Positions 4,484-44,000 of a DNA stretch of 52,548 nt are shown here, in pieces. The translations under genes were made by a program, and so were the position numbers. The stretch covers positions 1 through 52,548 of the IMG/VR virus record IMGVR_UViG_3300025000_000022; one strand, given 5' to 3'. This DNA comes from a virus. Within the stretch, counting starts at the first letter, position 1. The number at the start of each line of letters is the position of its first letter. Under the pieces are notes generated by a model. That model saw only the letters and a list, made by a program, of their open reading frames with translations. It was not told the DNA's origin and did not search any database.

Positions 4484-4903
4484 TTATATATTATTAATAC
4501 CTTCTTCAATATTATAATTAAAGAGTATATCACCAGAGTTATTTTTAGTAAAACCGAGAAGTAATGTAGTATTATCTGTTAATATTGGGATAGAAACCAT
4601 TAAAATACCTTGGCCTTTATAATCAGCAACAAATACTTTTACTTCACCCATATTTAAATAAGGTATTAAAGCTGGACATTGTTTATATATATTTTCTTTA
4701 AGACCATCAACATCAATACCATCTTCAAGATTATATAGATACTGTTTTATATTTATACCTATATGTGGTAAACTTGGTATATTACCAGGTCTCATAAAAA
4801 ATAAATTAATTATAATTTGAGCAATTGATTGATTAATACTAAGAACTCTTTGTCTTTGAAAATTATCTAATCCGAAATCAACTTCCTTTTTAAAATTAGC
4901 CAT
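4484..4903 (-). CDS. gp25-like baseplate wedge protein
   Basis: 139 aa, close to T4 gp25 length (132). ATG at 4903 after AAGGTGGTGG. The signature is QSIAQIIINLFFMRPGNIPSLPHIGINIKQYL, the family pattern of a helix, then a turn with PGE/PGN and a Pro- and Gly-rich strand. gp25 is a core wedge protein at the sheath-baseplate junction of contractile tails, so this marks the phage as a myovirus. First gene of the leftward block ending in beta-prime. A one-mismatch AACA-N6-TA box lies at 4944-4955. Confidence 0.75.
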   Translation of the reverse strand: MANFKKEVDFGLDNFQRQRVLSINQSIAQIIINLFFMRPGNIPSLPHIGINIKQYLYNLEDGIDVDGLKENIYKQCPALIPYLNMGEVKVFVADYKGQGILMVSIPILTDNTTLLLGFTKNNSGDILFNYNIEEGINNI

Positions 4904-5477: not shown

Positions 5478-5506
5478 ATAGAGTAATAGAAAGGTTGTGT
5501 TTAAAA

Positions 5507-8500
5507 TTGATTAAGTGTATTATATGTAATGACAAATTTAATCATATTGAAGACTTGTATGAACATTTTGAAGATGAACATAATGAAAGTATACCTAAAA
5601 ATTTCACTCCAGCTCAATATATATATTTTTTAAAAACAGGTAAAGATAAAGGTAAATGTATTGTATGTAAAAGACCAACTAAATGGAATGAAGTTACTAA
5701 TAAATATTTAAGATTTTGCCCATTAATGCAATGCAAAGATAAGTATAGAGAATTATTTAAAGAAAGAATGATTGGTAAGTATGGTAAAATACATTTATTA
5801 AATAGTCCTGAACAACAAAAAAAGATGTTAGCTAATAGAAAGATATCAGGTGAATATATTTGGTCTGATGGAACTAAAAAAACATATACTGGTTCATATG
5901 AATTAGATCTATTAAAATTTTTAGATATATTTTTAAGATTTAGTTCAGAAGATGTAATGACACCATCACCTCATGTATATTATTATGAATATGAAGGTGA
6001 AGAAAAATTTTATATACCCGATGCGTTTATACCATCTTTGAATTTAGAAATAGAGGTAAAAACTGGCAAAGATAATGAAAATAATCATCCTAAGATCCAA
6101 GCTGTAGATAAAGTTAAAGAAAGATTAAAAGATAAAGTGTTAATGAGTCAATCAACCTTTAATTATATAAAGCTTACTAATAAGAATTATGACGCTTTAT
6201 TTGAATTTTTGAAACAAGCTAAAGAAAGATTTATTGAATCAAATGGTGAAGATAATAAACCTATATTTGTTTTAATGGAGTCTTATGAAAATATTATTGA
6301 TGTTGATATCATAATGGAGGTTGAATATCACCGTGCATTAAGAATATTAGGTGATACAAAAGATAAAGAAAAATTAGGACCAAGAGAATTTTATAATAAA
6401 GTAGCTTTTAGATATATTTATAAAGTTGGTAATAAAAATGCTGGATTCATTGAAGTAAAAGTTAAAAAAGGTTACGCTTTCTTTAATATATTCATTAAAG
6501 AAGAATTTCGTGGTAAAGGTATATCACACGCTTTAATGAATGAGGGTCTTGAATTTTGTCATCGTTCTAAAAGAGATATAAATACAATGGTTTTAAATAT
6601 AAAAAAAACTAATAATATTTCTATTAAATTGGCTAAAAAATATGGATTTAAAGAACAAAAAAGTGATAAAGTTAATAAAACTCATATTAGGTTTATTAAA
6701 CTTGTTGGAGAATTTGTTAAAGAATCATTTATAAAAGAAAATAAAGATGAAAAAGCTATTGATCTCAGCTATGATATAAGACCAGATTCTGATTATAATT
6801 CTGAACAATTAAAGATTGGTATAGAAATTGAACAGGAACACACTAAAAATTTAGATAAAGCTAGAATGATTGCTAAAGATCATTTAGATGAAATTCCTGA
6901 TTATTATAGCAGATTAGTTAAAATGGAAAAAGAAGCTGAGGGAGAGAAAGATATTATTAGTAAAGAATCATTTTTTAATGCAGATGAATTAAAAAATATT
7001 AAGATTAAAGTACCTATTATAACTTTCCCAAAAAAAGAATGGAGTAGTATAAAGAAAAGACTTAATTCTGGTAAAGTTGTTTATACTATTCGTGTATATG
7101 TTGAAAGACATAAATATGTAGAAAACAATGTTTATCAAACTGAGTGGGGAACCGCTGTACAAGTTATTAGTGTTAATGAAATAAAAAGTATAAATGAATA
7201 TGAATTTAAAGAATATTTAGATGATGAGATGAAAAAGGATATTGGTGGTGCTAGAAAATTAGAAGTTATAGCTTTAAAGAAAATAAATGATTCATACATC
7301 TCTGAAACATATTATAAAGTTAAAGATTCAAAAATATCTGGTAAAGGTATATTTGCAAATAAAAATGTTGATGTTAATACCAAATTATTAGCTATAAAAA
7401 AAGTTGATAATACTGGTAATCCAGATAAAGATTATGAACGAACTAAAGCCGGTCAATTCGTTAATCATTCAAATAATCCTAATTTAGTATTAGTTCAAGC
7501 TATTAGAAATGGGAAGAAAGTTTATTTCTATAAATCTAAAGATAAAATTAAAAAAGGTGAAGAATTAACTATAGATTATAGACAATTTGATTTTGAGGGT
7601 AAAAGAGATTTTGTAAAAGAATCTTCTTTTATTAAAAATATACCCGATGCTATAAATAAGGAAACAAAAATATATTTTGCAATAACTAAAGATGAGATAA
7701 AATTGGATAAATTAGTTTATACTAGTGATAATAAAAATAAAGTCATTAATATGTCTATAAATAATATGATTAAATCTATTATAGAACAAAAACTAGAAAA
7801 TTTATTAACTCATTATGTTGAAATCCCCGTTTCATCAACTTCAGAAATTAAAATAAATACTAATATAATTTCTGATGATAAATTTGATTTTACATCAATA
7901 GATACTCCTTTTACTATAGATCTAAAAAAATATCCTATACGTGAAATTATTTATGATAACTTAACTGAATCATATAATAATAATTTATATCCTGTATTTA
8001 TACTATTAACTTTTACTAATACTAATATGGCTAAAGCTATTAAGTTTGTTACTGGTGAACCGTATAGTCATGTAAGTATTTCTTTTGATAGTAGTATGAA
8101 TGATATGTATAGCTTTGGTAGAAAATTTAAAGATTCTAATATGACTTTTATTAATGAAGATATAAAAGATGGATTATTTAAAGATGTTATTAAAGATACA
8201 ATTTATTCATTATATGTAATATTTGTTACTAAAGAACAAAAAGAATTAATGATAAATAAATTAGAAGAGTTTAAAAAGAAAAAAGACAAATTAAAATTTA
8301 ATTTTATTGGATTATTTAATATATCTATCGGTAAAGAAACTGACAGACAAAATGAATATTTTTGTAGTCAATTTGTAGCTGAGATATTAAAAGCTTCTAA
8401 TAATGGTATGATTGATAAACATCCTAGTTTATATAAACCATATGATTTTGCTAAACATAAAGAAACTCATTTTGTAACTAAGGGTAAATTAGAAAATTAC

Positions 8501-9916
8501 GATAAGGATATAGTAGATCAAAATGTATTAAAAATAACAAATAAATATGAAATTGTAAAAGAAAGTATTGGTAAAGATGAAAAAATAGATTTTATATTAC
8601 CAATTAAAAATCTAAAAGAAGGTGAATTATTAGTTATAAATACCCATATTACCAATATTACTTTTATTGAATCTTTAACTAATATTTTTGAATTATTAAT
8701 GTCAGCAATTCAAAAAAGCTCACCAGCACTAGCAGTTCCACTTTTTTCAATAAGAAATTTATTGACTCAAATGTTTGCTTTAGACTTTATGGGTTTTAAT
8801 ATAAAAACTAAAATGAATTATAAATCTGATAAAAATAATAATGATGATTTTTATATATTTAATGCTGAATTAGTTGCTGTTTCTGATGGAGAAATAATTG
8901 ATTGTTCCGATAAAATGGAAGATAAATTTAGTATAAAAAGATCCGCTGGTAACTATATTATCATTAAACATAATATTTTGTGTTATTCATTGTATGGTCA
9001 TATTAAAAAAGGATCAATTAAAGTTAAAAAAGGTGATAAAGTTAAACAAGGTCAAGTTATTGCTAATGTTGGAAATTCTGGTGCTGGAAGTGAACCACAT
9101 CTACATTATCAACTATGTTATTTAGATCCTAAAGTTATTGATTTGAAACTGTTTTCAATAATGCCAACTCTTAGCAGTAAACCATTAGAAAACTTTAAAA
9201 ATTTTTTACAATACCCTATTAATAAATCGCTTCTTTCAACATCAATGAATAATTTAGTATCCTTATATCAATATACTGCTAATGAATTAAATAAAATTGA
9301 TAAAATTAAATATGAATTAAATAGAGATGGGGAAATACCTCCATTTGGTTTTGTGAGAAATAAGACAATAAATGAAAATACTATTATAAAAGAAGAAAAT
9401 AATGATTATATTATTACCGAATTATATTTAACTGATTTACCTAATTTTAATAATGATGAAGATGTTTATAATTTTATGAGAAATAATATTAAGAATTCTG
9501 ATTTCAATATATTAAAAAATGATGATGAACTTATTGAATCTCAAAATGGTTCATCTCATGAACAAGCAATATTTATTCGTAATTTATTTAATAACAATAA
9601 ATTATATAAAGCTAGTTGTTTATTCTTTATTGAATATAATGAAAAAGAAAACACAGGAGGATTTAATCATACTTTATGTTATTATGTTAAAGATGAAAAG
9701 ATTTATTGGATTGAAACTTCTTGGGGTGAACAACTAGGAATTCATGGCCCTTTTAATTCTTTAATACATCTAAAACAATATATTGAGGATATTCATATTA
9801 AAATGGAATCAAATAATAAATATCCTGTATTAATATGGAATACTTTACCTAATAAAATTGAATATGGTTTAGATTTAAATTCTTATGTGTTGTTTTGTTT
9901 AAATATTAAAAAATAA
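5507..9916 (+). CDS. Giant multi-enzyme protein, putative proteolytically processed virion polyprotein
   Basis: About 1,469 aa. TTG at 5507 is preferred because the AAAGG site touches an in-frame TTG at 5495; residue numbers below count from 5495. Order: two zinc-finger-like Cys/His sites (C8, C11, H24, H29; C55, C58, C75, C80); PD-(D/E)XK nuclease (E136, D176, E187-V-K189); GNAT acetyltransferase (FRGKGIS, 338-344); DUF5661-like block (GIEIEQEHT...DHLDEIPDYY, 442-471); ASCH-like beta domain (~500-565); SET methyltransferase (GKGIF, NHSNNPN 657-663, GEELTIDY 688-695); YiiX/NlpC-P60-like hydrolase (H859, C957); M23-like peptidase (YGH 1167-1169, HLH 1202-1204); transglutaminase-like end (~1280-1440). 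The motif x-K-E-S occurs at 408-411, 489-492, 707-710 and 1021-1024, each between domain blocks, like maturation protease sites. M23 lacks an evident first His/Asp motif and the transglutaminase-like Cys appears to be Ser. A virion location is inferred from the late-type promoter box and cell-wall hydrolases. Confidence 0.85.
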   Translation: MIKCIICNDKFNHIEDLYEHFEDEHNESIPKNFTPAQYIYFLKTGKDKGKCIVCKRPTKWNEVTNKYLRFCPLMQCKDKYRELFKERMIGKYGKIHLLNSPEQQKKMLANRKISGEYIWSDGTKKTYTGSYELDLLKFLDIFLRFSSEDVMTPSPHVYYYEYEGEEKFYIPDAFIPSLNLEIEVKTGKDNENNHPKIQAVDKVKERLKDKVLMSQSTFNYIKLTNKNYDALFEFLKQAKERFIESNGEDNKPIFVLMESYENIIDVDIIMEVEYHRALRILGDTKDKEKLGPREFYNKVAFRYIYKVGNKNAGFIEVKVKKGYAFFNIFIKEEFRGKGISHALMNEGLEFCHRSKRDINTMVLNIKKTNNISIKLAKKYGFKEQKSDKVNKTHIRFIKLVGEFVKESFIKENKDEKAIDLSYDIRPDSDYNSEQLKIGIEIEQEHTKNLDKARMIAKDHLDEIPDYYSRLVKMEKEAEGEKDIISKESFFNADELKNIKIKVPIITFPKKEWSSIKKRLNSGKVVYTIRVYVERHKYVENNVYQTEWGTAVQVISVNEIKSINEYEFKEYLDDEMKKDIGGARKLEVIALKKINDSYISETYYKVKDSKISGKGIFANKNVDVNTKLLAIKKVDNTGNPDKDYERTKAGQFVNHSNNPNLVLVQAIRNGKKVYFYKSKDKIKKGEELTIDYRQFDFEGKRDFVKESSFIKNIPDAINKETKIYFAITKDEIKLDKLVYTSDNKNKVINMSINNMIKSIIEQKLENLLTHYVEIPVSSTSEIKINTNIISDDKFDFTSIDTPFTIDLKKYPIREIIYDNLTESYNNNLYPVFILLTFTNTNMAKAIKFVTGEPYSHVSISFDSSMNDMYSFGRKFKDSNMTFINEDIKDGLFKDVIKDTIYSLYVIFVTKEQKELMINKLEEFKKKKDKLKFNFIGLFNISIGKETDRQNEYFCSQFVAEILKASNNGMIDKHPSLYKPYDFAKHKETHFVTKGKLENYDKDIVDQNVLKITNKYEIVKESIGKDEKIDFILPIKNLKEGELLVINTHITNITFIESLTNIFELLMSAIQKSSPALAVPLFSIRNLLTQMFALDFMGFNIKTKMNYKSDKNNNDDFYIFNAELVAVSDGEIIDCSDKMEDKFSIKRSAGNYIIIKHNILCYSLYGHIKKGSIKVKKGDKVKQGQVIANVGNSGAGSEPHLHYQLCYLDPKVIDLKLFSIMPTLSSKPLENFKNFLQYPINKSLLSTSMNNLVSLYQYTANELNKIDKIKYELNRDGEIPPFGFVRNKTINENTIIKEENNDYIITELYLTDLPNFNNDEDVYNFMRNNIKNSDFNILKNDDELIESQNGSSHEQAIFIRNLFNNNKLYKASCLFFIEYNEKENTGGFNHTLCYYVKDEKIYWIETSWGEQLGIHGPFNSLIHLKQYIEDIHIKMESNNKYPVLIWNTLPNKIEYGLDLNSYVLFCLNIKK

Positions 9917-13593: not shown

Positions 13594-15525
13594 ATGGATT
13601 TTAATATATTGTTAGAAACTAAATTAAAAGCTAAGGACCGGAAAAACCTAGATTCGGAAGATTTTGGAATACCTGAAGACAGAAAATTTCCATTAATTGA
13701 TGAGGAACATACACTTCAAGCTATTAGATTTTTTAGATATTGCCCCGCATCTAAAAAATTAATATTAGCTAAAAATATAAATAAGAAAGCTAAAGAATAT
13801 GGTTTAAGAATAAATATTAGTGAGAAAAACCCTTTTTATAAATTAGCCGATAGAAGTATAATAAAAGAATGTGTTAACTGTTCGGTAGATGAATATCAAA
13901 TATATGATATGGATTTATCCAAAGAATTTTTAGATTTTATACCTAAAAATGATTATTTAAAACAAATAATCAAAGAGTTAAATACATTTATACCATCATC
14001 ATTAAGGGATGTTTTCGATTTTGAAAAAAAACTGTATGAAAATTTTTATATCTTATTTATAAATGACATTATAATTAATTCAATAAATAATAATAGATTA
14101 ATTATTATACCAATAGCAGTAATACAAACTTTAAATTCATATATTGAAAAGGTACTATATGAAAGAGGTTTTGAATATATATTATTTATACAGGGAAATG
14201 GTTATAGTCATATTGAATCAATTAAATTACAAAAAAATATGATTGATGACTTTTGTTATATGATTGATGGGGAAAATAGTATTGATGAAAATAAAAAATA
14301 TCTATCATCTTTAAAAGATATGATGAAACAAAATCCAAATAATTTCTTTTTAATCGTAAGACGTATTTATTTTTCATATATTCAAGGATTAAAAATAATA
14401 TGTGAGAGTGATATATATAATGTAAAAAATTCGAATAATAAAATTGAAATTTTAAATACTTTATTTAAGGAGTTTCTTGAAGATAAGGGAATAAAATATT
14501 TATATAGTCCTTTAGTTCATGGTTCTAATAGAGACCAAGAAGATTATGAATATTTTTTAAATTTAAATATGAAAAATACTGAGGAATTTCTAAGAAAAAA
14601 ATCTGTTGAATTAAAAGATTCAATTCGTTATATTACAACTAAATTTAATCTTTCATTAGGAATTAACTTTTTTAGTAATATGAATGAATTTTTTATGCAA
14701 GATATACCGAGAAATGATATTGAAATTCTATCCATAATAGAATTTTTAAAAGGTTCTTTAAATCCAAAATTTATTGAATATTACAATAAAAATTATACAT
14801 TAAAATTAGATAATAAAGATTTATTATTTTTCAATGAGTTAAAAAGTATTTTCTCAGGGGTTTACAATTCAACTGATAGAAACTGTGAATTAATATATTA
14901 TGGTGTAGGAGAAAGACGTTTATATTTATTAGCTAAACATAAGATTGATAGTAATGAACTTATTTTAATAAAACTATATGATGATTCATTAGAAACGAAT
15001 TTAATTCCATTAATATCTGATGATAGTAAAGATTTAGAAACTTTAGATATGAAGATTATTTATCTGAATAAAAAAGGGGGTGAAGAAACATACAATAGTA
15101 AAGTATTAACAGAAGGTATTTCAGTAGATGAAGATGGTATTAAATTCTATTTTAAACCTAGAAAATCGTATATGGATGATTATTCAGAAAATCACAAATT
15201 ATTAGTTGAAAATTTTAAATCTAAAAATTATGAAGCAATGAAACATAATTTAGCTTATTTATTTGCTTTAATAAATTCCATAGAACGGGATGTGATATAT
15301 AAGAAAAAAAATATTGATACTGATAAGTTAAAAGATGCTCAAAAAGCTAGAGCATTTGCAATTAATGATTTTAAGACTTATTTAAAAGAAGTGCAAAAGA
15401 ATGAAAAAGATTTTGATTTTACTAAATATTTTGAAAATGGTGGATATGATACATTTGTATATAATATAGATACAAAGTCTATATTAGGTGTAAAGAAATT
15501 ATTTAAAATAATTATGCTTGGATAG
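13594..15525 (+). CDS. DUF6582-like N terminus, large putative virion protein
   Basis: 643 aa, ATG at 13594 after AAAGGAGTG. Residues 15-85 (DRKNLDSEDFGIPEDRKFPLIDEEHTLQAI) fit the phage motif written as DUF6582: a FaIPEDRkyPi.DeeHar.AL block found in capsid-associated and other phage proteins. The remaining ~550 residues are helical and unrecognised. Begins MDFNILLETKLK, where I-L-L-E resembles the hydrophobic-x-Glu motif seen in other proteins here. Late-type promoter box and terminator make it a single-gene unit. A virion role is inferred. Confidence 0.75.
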   Translation: MDFNILLETKLKAKDRKNLDSEDFGIPEDRKFPLIDEEHTLQAIRFFRYCPASKKLILAKNINKKAKEYGLRINISEKNPFYKLADRSIIKECVNCSVDEYQIYDMDLSKEFLDFIPKNDYLKQIIKELNTFIPSSLRDVFDFEKKLYENFYILFINDIIINSINNNRLIIIPIAVIQTLNSYIEKVLYERGFEYILFIQGNGYSHIESIKLQKNMIDDFCYMIDGENSIDENKKYLSSLKDMMKQNPNNFFLIVRRIYFSYIQGLKIICESDIYNVKNSNNKIEILNTLFKEFLEDKGIKYLYSPLVHGSNRDQEDYEYFLNLNMKNTEEFLRKKSVELKDSIRYITTKFNLSLGINFFSNMNEFFMQDIPRNDIEILSIIEFLKGSLNPKFIEYYNKNYTLKLDNKDLLFFNELKSIFSGVYNSTDRNCELIYYGVGERRLYLLAKHKIDSNELILIKLYDDSLETNLIPLISDDSKDLETLDMKIIYLNKKGGEETYNSKVLTEGISVDEDGIKFYFKPRKSYMDDYSENHKLLVENFKSKNYEAMKHNLAYLFALINSIERDVIYKKKNIDTDKLKDAQKARAFAINDFKTYLKEVQKNEKDFDFTKYFENGGYDTFVYNIDTKSILGVKKLFKIIMLG

Positions 15526-22422: not shown

Positions 22423-22460
22423 AGGTAGAGTTATTTCTCTACCTTTATATCTTATTTTTT
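22416..22460. terminator. Bidirectional terminator between convergent genes
   Basis: 15-bp stem (22416-22430 with 22437-22451), T run on the plus side, A-rich start on the other. Lies between stops at 22422 (+) and 22452 (-) and overlaps the first. Confidence 0.85.
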
Positions 22461-23543
22461 TTCATCAGGATTATTATTAGTATCTTTTCCACCTTCAGCA
22501 ACAATACTTTTTAAAGCATTCAAATAAGCTCTGAACCTTTCTTCTAAAACTGTCATTGCAGAAGTTATAGACAGTTGAATAATTTGAACTATATTTTTAT
22601 ACATATTAAGTTGTGTGCTATTTAAATTAGAATATTTTTTATTTTCTTCTTGTGCATTAACATCTTCTTTATTATCTTTATTGACAACTGAAACTTCTGT
22701 TGGTTTAGTTGAAGCATCTCCAGGTTTTTTTTCATCTTTCTTTTTATTATCGTTCTGACTATCATCTGCTTCAAATACAACTTCAAAATTACTACAATGA
22801 ACTAAATCTGTATTACAGTATAATGTATTTTCAATTAAACAAAAGTCGGCAGACTCTTTTAACACCTTTTCAACTCGATTTAAAGATTGTTCTGCTTTAC
22901 TAATCCAAGCTTGCACTACAGGTAATATATCTTTACCATAGTTATAACAATAGTTTTTAAACTCTACAGCTTTAGATTTTAATTCAGCCCCTTCTAGTTC
23001 TTCTACTTTAATGGGACCTTTAGGATTATTGACTCTGAATTTATTTTTAAAACCTAAGGTTAAATCATTATCTTCATTTAAGTAATTTCTAAATAAATTA
23101 CTTTTCATATCTTCTATATCTTTAAATTTTTCTAAGTTTTTAGGATTATTTAATTCATTATTAGCTATTTCCTGAATTCTATTAACTACATTTTTAATTC
23201 TGTCAACACTCATTAACCAAAATGGCAACATACTTATTTTTAACTTATCATAATTAATTTTATCTAATTTATTAAAATTATCATCCATCCATTTTTTATT
23301 TGAATCAAAAAGTGTTTTAGTTTTTTCTGAAAACATTCCAAAGATACGTTTAAAGAAAGCCTTAATACTTTCCCATATCCCTTGATTTTTATTTGTGTTA
23401 TCATCAGCCTCTAATAGAATAAAATTATTATTTATAGAGTCATTAATAAACTTAGACTCTTCTTCCATTCGTTCCAATATTGTAGAAAAGAATTCTTTAT
23501 TAATTTCTAAATGAAAAATACTTGTCTCTAAACAATAATCCAT
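22452..23543 (-). CDS. Putative internal virion protein, paralog 4 of 4
   Basis: 363 aa, ATG at 23543 after GGGGGTG. The N-terminal ~50 residues end in FILLEADDN, followed by the helix WESIKAFFKRIFGMFSEKTKTLF and a weaker version of the GYKxxxFxYT block (DKLKISMLPFW). The C-terminal third is acidic/low complexity (DDSQNDNKKKDEKKPGDASTKPTEV) before a last helix. Last and most diverged of four tandem relatives. The plan (short leader, hydrophobic-x-Glu, long helical body) is like T4 internal proteins or phiKZ inner-body proteins that lose a propeptide in the capsid. This role is inferred. Confidence 0.68.
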   Translation of the reverse strand: MDYCLETSIFHLEINKEFFSTILERMEEESKFINDSINNNFILLEADDNTNKNQGIWESIKAFFKRIFGMFSEKTKTLFDSNKKWMDDNFNKLDKINYDKLKISMLPFWLMSVDRIKNVVNRIQEIANNELNNPKNLEKFKDIEDMKSNLFRNYLNEDNDLTLGFKNKFRVNNPKGPIKVEELEGAELKSKAVEFKNYCYNYGKDILPVVQAWISKAEQSLNRVEKVLKESADFCLIENTLYCNTDLVHCSNFEVVFEADDSQNDNKKKDEKKPGDASTKPTEVSVVNKDNKEDVNAQEENKKYSNLNSTQLNMYKNIVQIIQLSITSAMTVLEERFRAYLNALKSIVAEGGKDTNNNPDEKK

Positions 23544-23566
23544 AATTGTTCACCCCCATAATAGTT

Positions 23567-24646
23567 TTAGTCATTATTAGTTGATTTATTAGAACCTTTA
23601 AAAGCACATTTTTTAATAATATCTCTGTAAAAAGATAGACACTCTTTTAATGCATTAACTTTTTCTATAGAAGCCATTGTACACATACTACCAACTTCTT
23701 TAGATTGAATAAATTTAAAACTAAAAAATGTGTTAAATAAATTTATTTTGCTTTCACTATAACTTTTTTCAACATTATCACCAACTTGAGCTTTATTACC
23801 ATTTCTATTTAATAATTTTGCACCAATAGTTTTATCTTTACCTTTATAATAAATTGAAGCACTTTTTTCAAAGAAAGATTTAATTTTTTCAATAACTGTA
23901 ATTATATTATCTCTTTCTTTAATAGAATCACTATATTGTTTTTTTAAAAATGGATAATCGGCTATAACTGTTGTTAAAAAAGATTTATTTACATCAATAT
24001 CAATTTTTTCATCATTATTATCTCTAAATATTTTTTTAACATCTTTAAGATATTCATCCGAATCAACTTCACCGGATATACCAATAATATTAGCTCTAAT
24101 TTTATTTAAATTAGAAGTAGCCATAAATTTTTCTCTTTCTTCTATAATTTTATCTTTTGTCATATTATCAATATCATTGAGTTCACTGTTATATGAGTTA
24201 ATAATGTTATCAATAATATCTAAATTAGGTATATTTGATTTAAAGGTATATTTAAAGCCCTTAATAGTAAATTTAGGATCTAATCCTCTTAAATGTTCTT
24301 TATACTTATCTAAAAATTTTTCAAAATCACCAAGATAGGCATAAATAATCATAAAGATTCTTTTCATAAATTCTTTAAATTTATCTAAAAGATTTTTAAA
24401 GAATGAAATAACTGAATGAATAAAATCACTAAAACTTTCTTGTAATATTTCCATATTATTATCCTTAATAGCAATATGGGTTGATTGTAAATGCTCTTTA
24501 TTAATATTAAAACTACTTTCTTCTAATGATAAAAAATATTCTAAGCAGTATAGACTTGTATCGAAATCTATGTTATCAGTTGTTAACAAATTTGTTGATG
24601 AAATATTAATTGAATTATTTTTATTAAAAATATTTTTTAAATTCAT
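23567..24646 (-). CDS. Putative internal virion protein, paralog 3 of 4
   Basis: 359 aa, ATG at 24646 after AAAAGGAGATG. Leader to MEILQESFSDF, then helices ISFFKNLLDKFKEFMKRIFM and FLDKYKEHLRGLDPKFTIKGFKYTF, the block kept in the paralogs. No membrane segment or catalytic motif. Late-type box AACAAATAAATA at 24677-24688. Confidence 0.7.
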   Translation of the reverse strand: MNLKNIFNKNNSINISSTNLLTTDNIDFDTSLYCLEYFLSLEESSFNINKEHLQSTHIAIKDNNMEILQESFSDFIHSVISFFKNLLDKFKEFMKRIFMIIYAYLGDFEKFLDKYKEHLRGLDPKFTIKGFKYTFKSNIPNLDIIDNIINSYNSELNDIDNMTKDKIIEEREKFMATSNLNKIRANIIGISGEVDSDEYLKDVKKIFRDNNDEKIDIDVNKSFLTTVIADYPFLKKQYSDSIKERDNIITVIEKIKSFFEKSASIYYKGKDKTIGAKLLNRNGNKAQVGDNVEKSYSESKINLFNTFFSFKFIQSKEVGSMCTMASIEKVNALKECLSFYRDIIKKCAFKGSNKSTNND

Positions 24647-24676
24647 AGGTAAATTTCATCTCCTTTTTATTTTTCT

Positions 24677-24688
24677 TATTTATTTGTT
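24677..24688 (-). promoter_or_regulatory. Putative late-type promoter box AACA-N6-TA
   Basis: Minus strand AACAAATAAATA, 31 bp before the ATG at 24646 and just downstream of the terminator at 24705-24736. Confidence 0.55.
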
Positions 24689-24704
24689 TTTAAAGAAAAT
24701 ATAA

Positions 24705-24736
24705 AATACATTAGATGGATATCCATCTAATGTATT
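24705..24736. terminator. 32-bp perfect palindrome, terminator
   Basis: AATACATTAGATGGAT followed directly by its reverse complement. Lies between paralogs 2 and 3, with a modest minus-strand T-rich stretch after it. Confidence 0.8.
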
Positions 24737-24745
24737 TATAATAAA

Positions 24746-25828
24746 TTAAACTAAACGCATAGCCGCTTCAAAGATATTTGTAGTTTCATCATCTTCATTG
24801 GTATTGTATTCAAGGTTTTCCTTAACTGGTTTAAATCTCAGGAAACCTTTTAAAGTAGATTCAAAATCACTGGCGGCTTCTTTTAAATATTCAACATGCA
24901 TTTTAATCAATGCTGAGCGAATAGATAAACAGAATCTTAACATCTCAACACTGTGAGAAATATATGGTGATACTTTGGAAAATTCTTCATCTTTATATTT
25001 ATTACCAGCTGCCTCAATAGCTTTAATAACCTTACTAAATTTTGAATCAACTTCTTTTTGTTCTCTTTCCATACCAGTTAGACTTTTTTCACTTTCTTTA
25101 ATGAATTTAATCATATCTTCTTTACTGTTATTATTGAAGTCCTCAAATTCATCTCTTTCTTTTGAACCATCTCTGTATTGCTCATATAGTTCTTCTTGTA
25201 ATTCAGAGATAGAATCAACATTCAAATTTTTAAATACAGCTTCTTTATCTTCATTTGTATCATATTCTTCTTTCATACTATCTTTTTTAGAATCCATTGC
25301 ATCTTTATGCTTAGAAGAAGTTTTTAGATCAGCAGATGTTAGTCCATTTTCATATTCATTTTCAACTCTACTAATTTCTGTTATTACCTTAGTACCAAAA
25401 GCGGCACCTTTACTTGCAGTATATTTAAAAGATTTGTACTTATACCCTTTAGCATTTTTTTTACGTAAATCACTCTCAAACTTGGTAATAAAAGTTTTTC
25501 CGGAAGAAAAAAACATAACTAAATGTTTTTTCATTTTTTCAAACCAGGCTTTAATTCCTTCCCACATTCTTACAAACATATCTTTTATTCTGGTAAAGAA
25601 TCCTTTACCAAATGCTTCAAGAAGAACGACCGGATCAGCTGATTCGAATAATACAGCTTGTTCCATCATTACATCAGAAATATACATGCTGGCACGAATT
25701 TTGTAAGAATCTTTAGCAGATTCAGTTACAATTTGTTCAAGTGCCTCTGTAGTCGGTTGAATGTGGTCATATTTTGAAATGTCAAAATCGTTATCTACAG
25801 AACTTCTCTTTTTTCCAAAAATAGACAT
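24746..25828 (-). CDS. Putative internal virion protein, paralog 2 of 4
   Basis: 360 aa, ATG at 25828 after AAAGGGGGAT. Leader with LEQIVTESAKD and DPVVLLEAFGKGFF, then RIKDMFVRMWEGIKAWFEKMKKHL and FITKFESDLRKKNAKGYKYKSFKYTAS, lining up with paralog 1 FATKYEKELRRLNLSGYKHKMFTYTE. The rest is charged and helical with many E/K and DNA-mimic-like acidic runs (EEYDTNEDKEAVF). Codons are richer in G and C than most neighbours, as expected for an abundant protein. Confidence 0.72.
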   Translation of the reverse strand: MSIFGKKRSSVDNDFDISKYDHIQPTTEALEQIVTESAKDSYKIRASMYISDVMMEQAVLFESADPVVLLEAFGKGFFTRIKDMFVRMWEGIKAWFEKMKKHLVMFFSSGKTFITKFESDLRKKNAKGYKYKSFKYTASKGAAFGTKVITEISRVENEYENGLTSADLKTSSKHKDAMDSKKDSMKEEYDTNEDKEAVFKNLNVDSISELQEELYEQYRDGSKERDEFEDFNNNSKEDMIKFIKESEKSLTGMEREQKEVDSKFSKVIKAIEAAGNKYKDEEFSKVSPYISHSVEMLRFCLSIRSALIKMHVEYLKEAASDFESTLKGFLRFKPVKENLEYNTNEDDETTNIFEAAMRLV

Positions 25829-25887
25829 TTTATTATATCCCCCTTTGAATTTTTTAATCCAAATATATTTTAATTATTCATTAAATT

Positions 25888-26949
25888 TTATTTCGTTTCT
25901 TCTTTATATCTAAATGCACTTACACAAACTTGCTTATAAACAGATTCCCGTTCTGTTATAGCCTGTTTCCATGCACTGAAGTATTCAAGAGCAATGGTTT
26001 TAGCTTCACTGAACAAAGATGAATATTTTTGCATAATAGATATTTGTATGGAAGCAAGTTTCCTTTTATCTTCCGAAGAGTTTTTATCATCAACTGATTT
26101 ACCAAATTCTTTTTCATAGCCGGTGACTTCTTTTAAAACAGCCGTAAATGATTTTTCAGCAGATTTTTCAGAATCAGTCGCCATTTTAGAATATTTGTCA
26201 CTTTTTAAAGAAGTAATGATGTCGCCGATATTAACGGATTTTTCATCAATATCATCACTGTCTTTAGCACCACTTCTGAAATGTGAAAATAAATCTTTTT
26301 TAAAGTCATCACTATCCTTAGAACCACCACCAACAAAAGTCCCACGAACTTTATTGATAATTTCTTCTTTATTTTCTTCCATGTCATCAAGACATTTTTT
26401 AGCATCAGTTTCAGAAGAAAAATTCTTCAAGGCTCCGGTTTGGTCAACAATGTCCATTGCTACTTCGATACCGTTGGATACATGATTGTTACTATCCAGT
26501 TCGGTATAAGTGAACATTTTATGTTTATAGCCGGATAAATTAAGCCTTCTGAGTTCTTTTTCATATTTGGTTGCAAAGTCTTTACCGCTTTTGAACATTC
26601 CGTCAAAGAAACGAATAACAGAAGCAAAAAATTGTTTTAGTTTACCCCACATTTTACTGAAGAAAGCCTTAATTCTTTCCCAAACATTACTCATGGCACC
26701 TTCAGTTACAGTTTGAAAATCTTTCATGCGTGCCTCAATTTTAAAATCATCCGCACCGGATTCACGTAAAGATTTAACATCACTTTCCATATTGAGTTCT
26801 TCAATATCCATCGTATGAATAGACTCAATAATAGCCAGTTGATCTTCATAACCTTCTTGAATTGCGGTTAAATCACCATTAACCAAACAATTGTATCCAT
26901 TATATGAAGGTACAGCGGTTCCTTTTCCGGTTCTATTAAAAATAGCCAT
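25888..26949 (-). CDS. Putative internal virion protein, paralog 1 of 4
   Basis: 353 aa, ATG at 26949 after GAAAGGTGG. Leader of ~80 residues ending FQTVTEGAMSNV, then WERIKAFFSKMWGKLKQFFASVIRFF and the conserved KYEKELRRLNLSGYKHKMFTYTE. C-terminal helices end in YKQVCVSAFRYKEETK. First gene of the paralog array, with a full late-type box at 26986-26997. Among the highest G/C usage in the window. Family role inferred as for the other copies. Confidence 0.72.
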   Translation of the reverse strand: MAIFNRTGKGTAVPSYNGYNCLVNGDLTAIQEGYEDQLAIIESIHTMDIEELNMESDVKSLRESGADDFKIEARMKDFQTVTEGAMSNVWERIKAFFSKMWGKLKQFFASVIRFFDGMFKSGKDFATKYEKELRRLNLSGYKHKMFTYTELDSNNHVSNGIEVAMDIVDQTGALKNFSSETDAKKCLDDMEENKEEIINKVRGTFVGGGSKDSDDFKKDLFSHFRSGAKDSDDIDEKSVNIGDIITSLKSDKYSKMATDSEKSAEKSFTAVLKEVTGYEKEFGKSVDDKNSSEDKRKLASIQISIMQKYSSLFSEAKTIALEYFSAWKQAITERESVYKQVCVSAFRYKEETK

Positions 26950-41000: not shown

Positions 41001-44000
41001 AAACTTTTTCATTCATTTCTAATTTTTTAAGTTCTTCTGAACTTGCTAGTATTGAATAAATTGTTGTAGCTACATATTGTTTTAAACTTGTTCCAGTTTG
41101 CTCATTAAATATTTCTGATAAAATATCAATTACAGGAAAGAACCCAACTAATGATTTGGTTATAGATGATGCTATTCTCATTTTTGTATCTATTGACTCT
41201 TCCCTAACTTTAAATATTCTCGATGCTTCATATGCACCTGTAGCTAAATCCCATGAGATTATCACTGGTGCTGCAAATATTTTTGCTCCAGTTTTTAAAA
41301 AAGCCATTGACAGTTTACCCATATATTTAAACATGGATTTATAATTTAATACTTTTGTGACAGTGTTTATTATTGTACTAGATATTTTTGCTGCTGCTGG
41401 ACCTAATTTATTTTTAACAAATGAATTATTAAAGAATCTCTCAAAAGTATTTTTAATAGCTTGAATAATTTTATTAGAGTCGTTTACTGTAACTTCTTTA
41501 ACTATTTTACCAGTTTCATCTGTTACCTTAAAAGATACATCTATAGCCCCATTTCTAACAACATTAGGTGTAGAAAAAGCATTTTTTAAATTAGATCCAT
41601 ATTTAACAATATTCTTTGTAAAATTAGAATTTTTTATTTTATCTGTAACTCCAGCTAAAGAATTCACTATTTTAGAACCATGTCTTCTAGCGGTAATTAA
41701 ACCACCTTTAACTAAACTTTCTCTATATTGTCCATTTATTATTTTTTTATTAGTTACTCCATTTTCATCAACATCTTGACGACTTTCATCATTTTTTTCA
41801 CCTAAATTTATTATTCCATTACCAATTTCAGGAATAGAAGGAAATTTACCTTTAATCCATTGTATAATATCTTTTAAATAAGGAATTAATAATAATAAAC
41901 CGGCTGTAAGCAATCCTTTTGAACCAAATATTGATAACCAGCTATCATGTTGACTTTTTGTAGTATCAGCAATACGTTGTAATAGTGATGTTTGTTTCAC
42001 TTCATTATTTCTGGTAAAATCTTTTTCATTTCTTAAATTATTTTGAGCTATTAAAAATCCTGCTGTTTTTCTAGAAACATCCTTTTGGTCTTGTTGTAAT
42101 TCAGATTCTTTATTTCTTTCTTTCTGTCTGTTCTCTTCTTCAATATCATTTTGATTATCAAATAAATTAAGAGCACCTAATAAGGAACTACTTATATCAC
42201 TACCCATATTTTTTAAACCTGGTGGTAAACCAGGAACATTAAATGACGAATTCCTTTGCTGTGATTGATTTATATTAAAATAAACTGGTATTGGTCTATC
42301 TGAACCAACTATTTTAACGGGAGTAATAATATTATTAGAAATAGAAGTTCCTTTTATATTATTAGTAAGATTTGATTTATTATCACCTATTTGTCTAACT
42401 ACATCAATTATACCACCTGTTATATACATTTCTGAACGATTTATACCCATTGATCTACCAATTAAATCGGCTGCAAATCTTAATGGTGAAGTAGCTATTT
42501 TAAATAATGATTTAGTAGCAGATGTTAATAATCCCCCAACACTTTTCATTACACCAAAACCAAAGTCCATAATCATTTTAGTTGATGTTAATAGAAAGTC
42601 ACCTACAACTGGAACAATACTCATGAGTCCCTTAGTAAAAGTTGAAATTGTTGAACCAATAGCTTCACCAATCCCATAAGCAACTTGACCTATACCTTTA
42701 CCAATACCTATCATTGATTCAGCAATCATTCCCATTGTACCTGAAAATAATTTAGCAACACCTTTAAGAGTTTCACCAATAGCAGGTGCTATCATTTTTA
42801 CTGATTCAGCAAATATTTTTGTAGTCTGAGCAAATAAATTTAATAATTGACCAGGTAATTTAACTATAGTTAAAAATGTCTCTTTACCTATTGATAATAT
42901 TTCAGAACCTATATTATACATAGTTGAAAATATTTGTTTAGGTACAGTAACTAATATTGTCTTACTAAAATCAAATATTTTTTTACCAACAGAAGTAATT
43001 TTATCAGTTACAAATTGAATAGAGCCCATAACTTTCTCTTTAATAGTGTCTATAGGTTTATATAACATTTTTCTAACTTTACCTAATAATCCAACTCTGT
43101 CTCTATTTGAACTACCACTTAAATCTTCATCTGATATACCTTGTTGTGATTGAATCAACTTTCTTATTTTATACACATTACCACCAACACCATCAAGCTG
43201 ACCATTAACTTCTTTAGCAATGGTTCTAACATCTCCTGCTATTTGAATTATTAATTCATCTTTTGATTTAATTCTACCAATAGATGTTTTTTTAGTTGGT
43301 TGTGTAATTTGACTAATAGTTGGCTGAGATATAGATGAATCTTCTGTTTGTTGTTGATTTATATTTGGTTGATTTGTAGGTGAAGTTGTTGATTTTTTAC
43401 CTCTTCTTCTACTCCCACCTGTTCTTTTGTTTATAACGTCTGTAACATCATCTACAATTGAAGATGTGTCACCTTGTTGAATTGAGCCTGGTAATATAAT
43501 TACACTTTGATCATTTACAGGTTTAGGATTAGGTCTACCTCTTCTTCGACCACCAGTTCTATTATTTATATTATTCGTAGTATCATTAATTGGATTTGAT
43601 GACATTTGTTCATTTCTTCGTTCTTCAGGACTTGAATATTGACCTCTAACAACTTTACCATCAGGGCTAAAATTGTCATAATTATTATTAATACCAGCTC
43701 TTTTTCTATCTCTCCATGCACTCCACATTTTTCTTATTTCTTCTCTTTTAGATCCAAATTCAGCATTAGCGTCATCTTCTCTTTTTTGTCTATCAATTTC
43801 TAACTGTTTAGCATATGGTGCACCCTGACTACTATTTCTAGCATCAGCTCTAGCTTGTCTATTGAAATAAATATCTTTAAATTTCTTTAAACCACCAAAG
43901 AAACCCATTCTTTCTTTACGTTCCCGTCTACCTTTAAAATCTAATAAGTCATTCCAACCTTCTTCTACATAAGCATCTAAACCAGCCTGCATATGTTTTT

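Follow-up and report, generated by a model that had tools for sequence, protein, structure and literature searches.

We analysed a stretch of viral DNA of 52,548 nucleotides (IMG/VR record IMGVR_UViG_3300025000_000022, positions 1–52,548; hereafter the window), part of the genome of a jumbo phage of the AR9/PBS1/phiR1-37 type, with split genes for RNA polymerase beta and PHROGs of virion proteins. On its plus strand, positions 5495–9916 form a single uninterrupted reading frame of 1473 amino acids with zero stops, encoding a candidate cargo polyprotein that appears to consist of about nine modules connected by some eight short joints. A first-pass annotation, made from the sequence alone, had read this frame from position 5507. 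We confirm the open reading frame (ORF) and consider TTG 5507 to be probably the translation start rather than TTG 5495, since (i) TTG 5507 lies 12 nt from an AGAAAGG box that touches TTG 5495 with zero spacing, (ii) it is invariant in the compared relatives and (iii) it matches the start of the AR9 protein. From TTG 5507, the chain comprises 1469 amino acids (171.8 kDa); residues are numbered from 5495.

Matches to Pfam and PHROG profiles bear out the initial description of a multi-enzyme protein of about nine domains, all on the plus strand. Module 1 (5507–6280; residues 5–262, 30.7 kDa, ending at LME262/S, where the slash marks the joint) combines a C2H2-type zinc finger with an endonuclease carrying a candidate PD...ExK-like motif. 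It matches phrog_15137, a whole-domain profile, over residues 4–243 (5.3e-66) and is 47% identical to AR9 g233; the motif YIPDAFIPSLNLEIEVK was read by eye, and its residues P175, D176, I186 and K189 are invariant in alignment A2. Module 2 (6281–6724; residues 263–410, ending at VKE410/S) is a GNAT acetyltransferase (PF13673, 1.2e-9, match 303–403), and module 3 (6725–6967; residues 411–491, ending at SKE491/S) a DUF5661 domain (PF18905, 3.5e-14, match 437–480); a genome-contig scan with the GNAT-DUF5661 pair returned short partial matches only. The following block had been described as ASCH-like plus SET. Its SET part is well founded: module 5 (7307–7621; residues 605–709, ending at VKE709/S) matches PF00856 (2.7e-10, match 593–695) and, aligned with phage SET domains, shows the SET methyltransferase motifs SGKGIFA (GxG), NHSNNPN (NHSxxPN) and GEELTIDY (DY). 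The ASCH-like part, module 4 (6968–7306; residues 492–604, ending at ISE604/T), is weak (PF04266, 0.012), with a profile score of 16.7 bits under the curated cut-off of 21.2.

Module 6 (7622–7969; residues 710–825, ending at LTE825/S) has no domain assignment, and a viral-contig scan with it found the same phage only. Module 7 (7970–8563; residues 826–1023, ending at VKE1023/S), initially called NlpC/P60-like, is better named a Peptidase_C92-like permuted papain amidase/peptidase (PF05708, 0.0019, 18.7 bits against a curated cut-off of 27; phrog_1128, 4.6e-12). Its His (YSH) and Cys (CSQF, within FCSQF) are conserved with a Fusobacterium phage, and tblastn of the module against named phages gave zero matches. 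The PHROG label of phrog_1128, 'enoyl-CoA hydratase/carnithine racemase-like', falls on C92-like modules both here and in L044 and is probably wrong. Module 8 (8564–9421; residues 1024–1309, ending at ITE1309/L) is M23-like (PF01551, 1.1e-17, match 1124–1208, beginning at profile position 14); on inspection of the sequence, HLH is there and the HxGxD pair is not recognisable, leaving the M23 zinc ligands incomplete. Module 9 (9422–9913; residues 1310–1473) is transglutaminase-like by BLASTP to a module of the relative L006 (24%, E 2e-5) and by alignment to Cys-bearing modules in relatives, a call of homology only: of the Cys-His-Asp/Glu triad, His1392 and Glu1407 are kept, while three relatives have Ser where Cys would be expected. 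For modules 9 and 6, AlphaFold produced models with predicted local distance difference test scores of 46 and 43, which were set aside for fold searches. An NCBIfam scan gave matches only far under the cut-offs (M23, GNAT and PdeM types), and PADLOC gave zero matches.

The motifs of the SET, GNAT and nuclease modules appear intact. With HxGxD missing from module 8 and Ser standing at the Cys position of module 9, some modules may be inactive and a wall-degrading role is doubtful, which weakens the earlier inclusion of wall enzymes in the set.

The first-pass annotation had recognised four x-K-E-S motifs (VKES411, SKES492, VKES710 and VKES1024) as joints. All four are present as described and real, and LME262/S, ISE604/T, LTE825/S and ITE1309/L had been overlooked; we therefore reject the four as a complete set. 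The five blocks then envisaged agree with our analysis in that Glu-type protease joints lie between modules. With some eight joints and nine modules, however, cutting is predicted also to part the nuclease from GNAT, ASCH from SET and M23 from transglutaminase.

The placement of these joints, rather than their number, carries the argument, because the raw over-representation of the motif is mild: the polyprotein contains six [ILVM]xES sites in 1473 amino acids (Poisson p 0.027 against the other ORFs of the same phage), and we rejected significance based on motif number alone. The relative L006 contains eight such sites (p 0.001). We determined breakpoints of homology by Viterbi segmentation, blind to motifs, of the alignment with L004 and L006, two close relatives in IMG/VR (alignment A1). 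Breakpoints were obtained at residues 264/270, 481, 602, 711, 825/828, 1015/1020 and 1302/1306, and four of the six [ILVM]xES sites (262, 709, 825 and 1023) lie within 3 residues of one of them (rotation p 0.0007, the smallest value obtainable; uniform p 1.5e-4). Site 410 marks the GNAT/DUF5661 border, which is invariable among the window phage, L004 and L006. For L006, five of eight sites lie within 8 residues of breakpoints (uniform p 2e-4), and of all 400 hydrophobic-x-a-b patterns compared, ES comes out on top at breakpoints.

Comparison with the related phages revealed that whole modules are gained, lost or swapped at joints. In L006, an additional HExxH module sits between LME/S and ISE/S, a Cys-bearing transglutaminase-like module replaces the ASCH-like module 4 after VLKE/S, and a second SET domain occupies the position of module 6 between VKE/S and IKE/S. 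In L004, VKE/S is followed directly by the C92 module without module 6, and the M23-like module 8 is missing in both relatives. Module order also changes, since a weak homologue of module 6 stands after the C92 module in L036.

We located the prohead protease (G003, 41052–41879) and the major capsid protein (MCP) using the proteins of Staphylococcus phage DC4. Both belong to the window phage, since contig G003 carries them together with a polyprotein copy that is identical over the 1385 amino acids present. This linkage rests on G003 because G001, the 249,853-bp IMG/VR record that holds L006 and L007–L020, is probably chimeric, combining two strains: on the left it is 99.7–100% identical to G003, the contig of the window phage, and on the right it holds an 81–87% diverged copy of the same regions. 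G001 was therefore dropped as one genome. At the place expected for maturation, the MCP of the window phage reads LELIKE/SSDIGQLSP, and putative sites occupy the same place in DC4 (EEILME/SSMGPIQP), AR9 (AILQE/S), phiR1-37 (VMLQE/S), G019 (DFVKE/S), the phage of L078 (QIARE/A) and others examined. The protease itself has putative sites near its N-terminus (LIRE/S) and C-terminus (VVSE/S); at such places SPN3US gp245 is known to cut itself, and it cleaves after A-x-E with a preference for Ser at P1' (PMC10052503). The joints VKE/S, LME/S and LTE/S thus match the motif of the MCP and protease of the same phage (IKE/S, IRE/S, VSE/S), and the analogy to T4-type head proteases drawn earlier is borne out by [IVLM]-x-E/S at the expected maturation places. 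Ranking the proteins of the window phage by motif density places the protease and virion-type proteins on top. A single physical check bears on these putative sites: the MCP of PBS1, encoded as 58.9 kDa, runs at ~50 kDa in virions by SDS-polyacrylamide gel electrophoresis (PMC5646251), and the propeptide of the AR9 MCP up to LQE84/S amounts to a computed 9.5 kDa. In L078, the MCP site carries Ala at P3 (ARE/A) and the polyprotein joints read PATE/N (twice) and VAKE/G; as one case, this shared P3 Ala is suggestive of joint and capsid motifs changing together.

A wider scan with the endonuclease returned 80 loci. Solo endonucleases stop at KPIFMI, KIVML or RPIVMI, 1–3 residues short of the joint; most fused endonucleases run on as KPIFMTE/S, RPIVMCE/S, RPIFVLME/S or GTILTE/S into very different cargo, namely calcineurin-like, NUDIX, HAD, P-loop kinase, GNAT, ART-like (by eye), C92 and transglutaminase-like modules. 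Fused forms that deviate at the nuclease joint are L037, with ILAE/N, and L036 and L090, in which no clear motif stands there. A kinase module of L060 has the linker E/[ST]VEDNLFDELITE/N on either side, and L061 has a single copy and no kinase. When the distinct fused proteins are compared by local alignment, 23 of the 49 alignment ends fall within 10 residues of [ILVMA]xE[STANG] (9.3 expected, p 0.0005), and three control patterns were null. Some modules also occur unfused with motifs of their own: L155 encodes nuclease, head-type protein and C92 (MTGLLLE/S) as consecutive separate genes, L044 has separate module genes with N-terminal DILSE/S and DILTE/S, and in Fusobacterium phage JD-Fnp1 the nuclease gene is followed by a C92 gene with N-terminal LYSE/A. 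From these separate-gene modules with their own N-terminal sites we infer that the fused form has the look of adjacent head-targeted genes joined into one frame, the old N-terminal peptides remaining as joints. The JD-Fnp1 gene annotated as 'DNA gyrase subunit A' (L026, 2965–4137) is an AR9-type endonuclease homologue, and its annotation is probably wrong.

A gp25-like baseplate wedge gene (4484–4903, minus strand), assigned by position and by eye, lies next to the polyprotein gene; in AR9, DC4 and phiR1-37, too, such a gene adjoins that of the nuclease. The solo nuclease of phiR1-37, g237, carries the annotation 'phage structural protein', and in L154 and L155 modules are located among multi-site head-type proteins. 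The motif recurs in other proteins of the window phage: a virion-type paralogue (24746–25828, minus strand) has N-terminal VTE/S and LFE/S.

Positions 22452–26949 of the window hold four tandem, apparently virion-type genes of 353–363 amino acids, all with [ILVM]xES sites in about the first 85 residues, which is where head proteins with propeptides should have them. A further gene of the window (13594–15525) encodes a 643-residue protein whose C-terminus, judged by eye, is similar to the final module of L070. The 'DFGLPxxRKYPL' type segment at the N-terminus of this protein, assigned to DUF6582 in L078, recurs as a small separate gene in L037 and as a polyprotein end module in L078. DUF5661 is part of a Vibrio phage protein with DUF2213, a head-maturation type, and in cyanophages it neighbours terminase genes (L176, 1838–3106; L178, 2117–3247; L024, 2854–4683), and may for this reason be a general head-associated module.

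We judge it likely that the frame encodes a head-protease-processed, probably injected cargo polyprotein of an AR9-type jumbo phage. Cleavage, head location and injection are here extrapolated from features read in the sequence: the domains, the joints, the exchange of modules at joints, the agreement of the joint motif with the putative MCP site, and the separate-gene versions with N-terminal sites. The ORF would give rise to a precursor made up of about nine small proteins, among them a nuclease, an acetyltransferase, a methyltransferase and a cysteine-amidase-like protein, and each [IVLM]-x-Glu/Ser-like joint would be a cleavage site for the T4/phiKZ-type prohead protease that the phage itself encodes. 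This precursor would enter the prohead and be cut at the same stage as the MCP; the freed modules would remain in the head and reach the host together with its DNA, where they would serve early takeover or protection, and the role of each module in the host we can only infer. Maturation in the tail, also considered initially, finds no support. The joints would act as standard connectors between modules and, as we propose, would therefore allow whole modules to be exchanged between phages with their neighbours intact. With somewhat less assurance, we think it probable that jumbo phages of the AR9 type possess enzyme strings which are hypervariable and linked by prohead-protease joints, an interchangeable, capsid-cut and injected set that is functionally analogous to RNA-virus polyproteins and evolves by plug-in of whole modules at cleavable joints.

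Several observations weigh against processing in the head. Three of eight joints are non-canonical (SKE/S, ISE/T, ITE/L) and deviate from the MCP/protease motif, L004 has CNE/G at one joint, LIE1348/S sits inside module 9 away from any joint, and the raw motif number is only mildly high. The MCP maturation site is read from sequence and not from sequenced protein, and the known head cuts of giant phages remove propeptides and do not free several enzymes. The virion proteomes considered are all of phages that lack the fused form, and their solo nuclease is unnamed in the BpSp virion list (23 proteins from gel bands, in which protease and portal were missed too) and in the passages covered for DC4 (15 proteins), both shallow proteomes. 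This silence, together with the mild motif excess, would suit a late cytoplasmic multi-enzyme fusion that acts in the infected cell and never enters the virion, its motif likeness reflecting shared composition. The structural annotation of phiR1-37 g237, the adjoining baseplate gene and, in L154 and L155, the position of modules amid head-type proteins with several sites each make such a fusion improbable.

The chain might instead be a polyvalent protein in the sense of Iyer et al. 2017 which enters particle and host in one piece, or which its own C92, transglutaminase-like and HExxH peptidase modules trim, with the E-S joints as no more than flexible linkers. There are precedents in multi-domain conflict proteins that contain GNAT, ART and peptidase domains, both N4 vRNAP and TraC1 are transferred intact, and peptidase-like modules lie within the chain. 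We regard this as rather unlikely, given that the joints match the putative MCP and protease sites of the same phage, that ES beats every other residue pair at breakpoints with null control patterns, that P3 becomes Ala in the L078 joints together with its MCP, and that joints persist while peptidase modules vary or go missing among relatives. Finally, the repeated linker of L060/L061 and the exchange at joints could mark recombination hot spots, at which short conserved linkers preserve the frame and the motif signals recombination rather than proteolysis. Such hot spots are compatible with cleavage too; as a replacement for it they have very little probability, as they leave unexplained the same motif at the maturation points of MCP and protease and at the N-termini of unfused modules.

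If processing in the head holds, a capsid protease known mainly for the removal of propeptides and scaffold would also process a true polyprotein, and the rule [IVLM]-x-E/S between modules, calibrated on the phage's own MCP, would make probable injected proteins readable from metagenomes. The probable head cargo of jumbo phages would gain SET, GNAT, DUF5661, ART-like, HAD, NUDIX, calcineurin-like and P-loop modules. Literature text searches, which covered few subscription papers, returned no description of head-protease sites as links between enzymes, which is weak evidence of novelty.

In T4, Alt and the internal proteins carry an N-terminal capsid targeting sequence that is removed in the prohead by the E-type protease gp21, and the enzyme is injected. 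There, each gene encodes one enzyme with one targeting peptide, whereas here the predicted cut sites lie between successive enzymes of one chain. The head and inner-body proteins of phiKZ and SPN3US, which are cut by gp175/gp245, share with the proposed system the jumbo-phage setting, an E-specific protease, the P1' Ser preference, multiple cuts and ejected proteins, but the parts removed are propeptides rather than a series of different enzymes, and the SPN3US motif is A-x-E instead of [IVLM]-x-E. Phage P1 DarA and DdrB are head-packaged, proteolytically processed defence proteins with few domains, for which the text covered reports neither repeated joints nor cassette exchange. T4 Alt, the internal proteins and the phiKZ/SPN3US inner proteins form the base of the analogy for packaging and ejection (PMC5694885, PMC10052503). 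The nearest concept to this chain is that of the polyvalent proteins of phages and conjugative elements (Iyer et al. 2017, PMC5512222), mentioned briefly also in a jumbo-phage survey (PMC7824862); text searches of these two papers found zero SET domains, zero M23 domains and zero prohead-protease joints between modules. Polyvalent proteins contain 2–15 diverse enzyme domains (GNAT, ART, peptidases), shuffle fast, are predicted to be injected and have been compared with RNA-virus polyproteins (PMC5512222). Like them, the present chain joins several unrelated effector-type domains in one protein. Polyvalent proteins are released by embedded peptidase domains; here peptidase-like modules are present but variable, and the joints fit the prohead protease instead.

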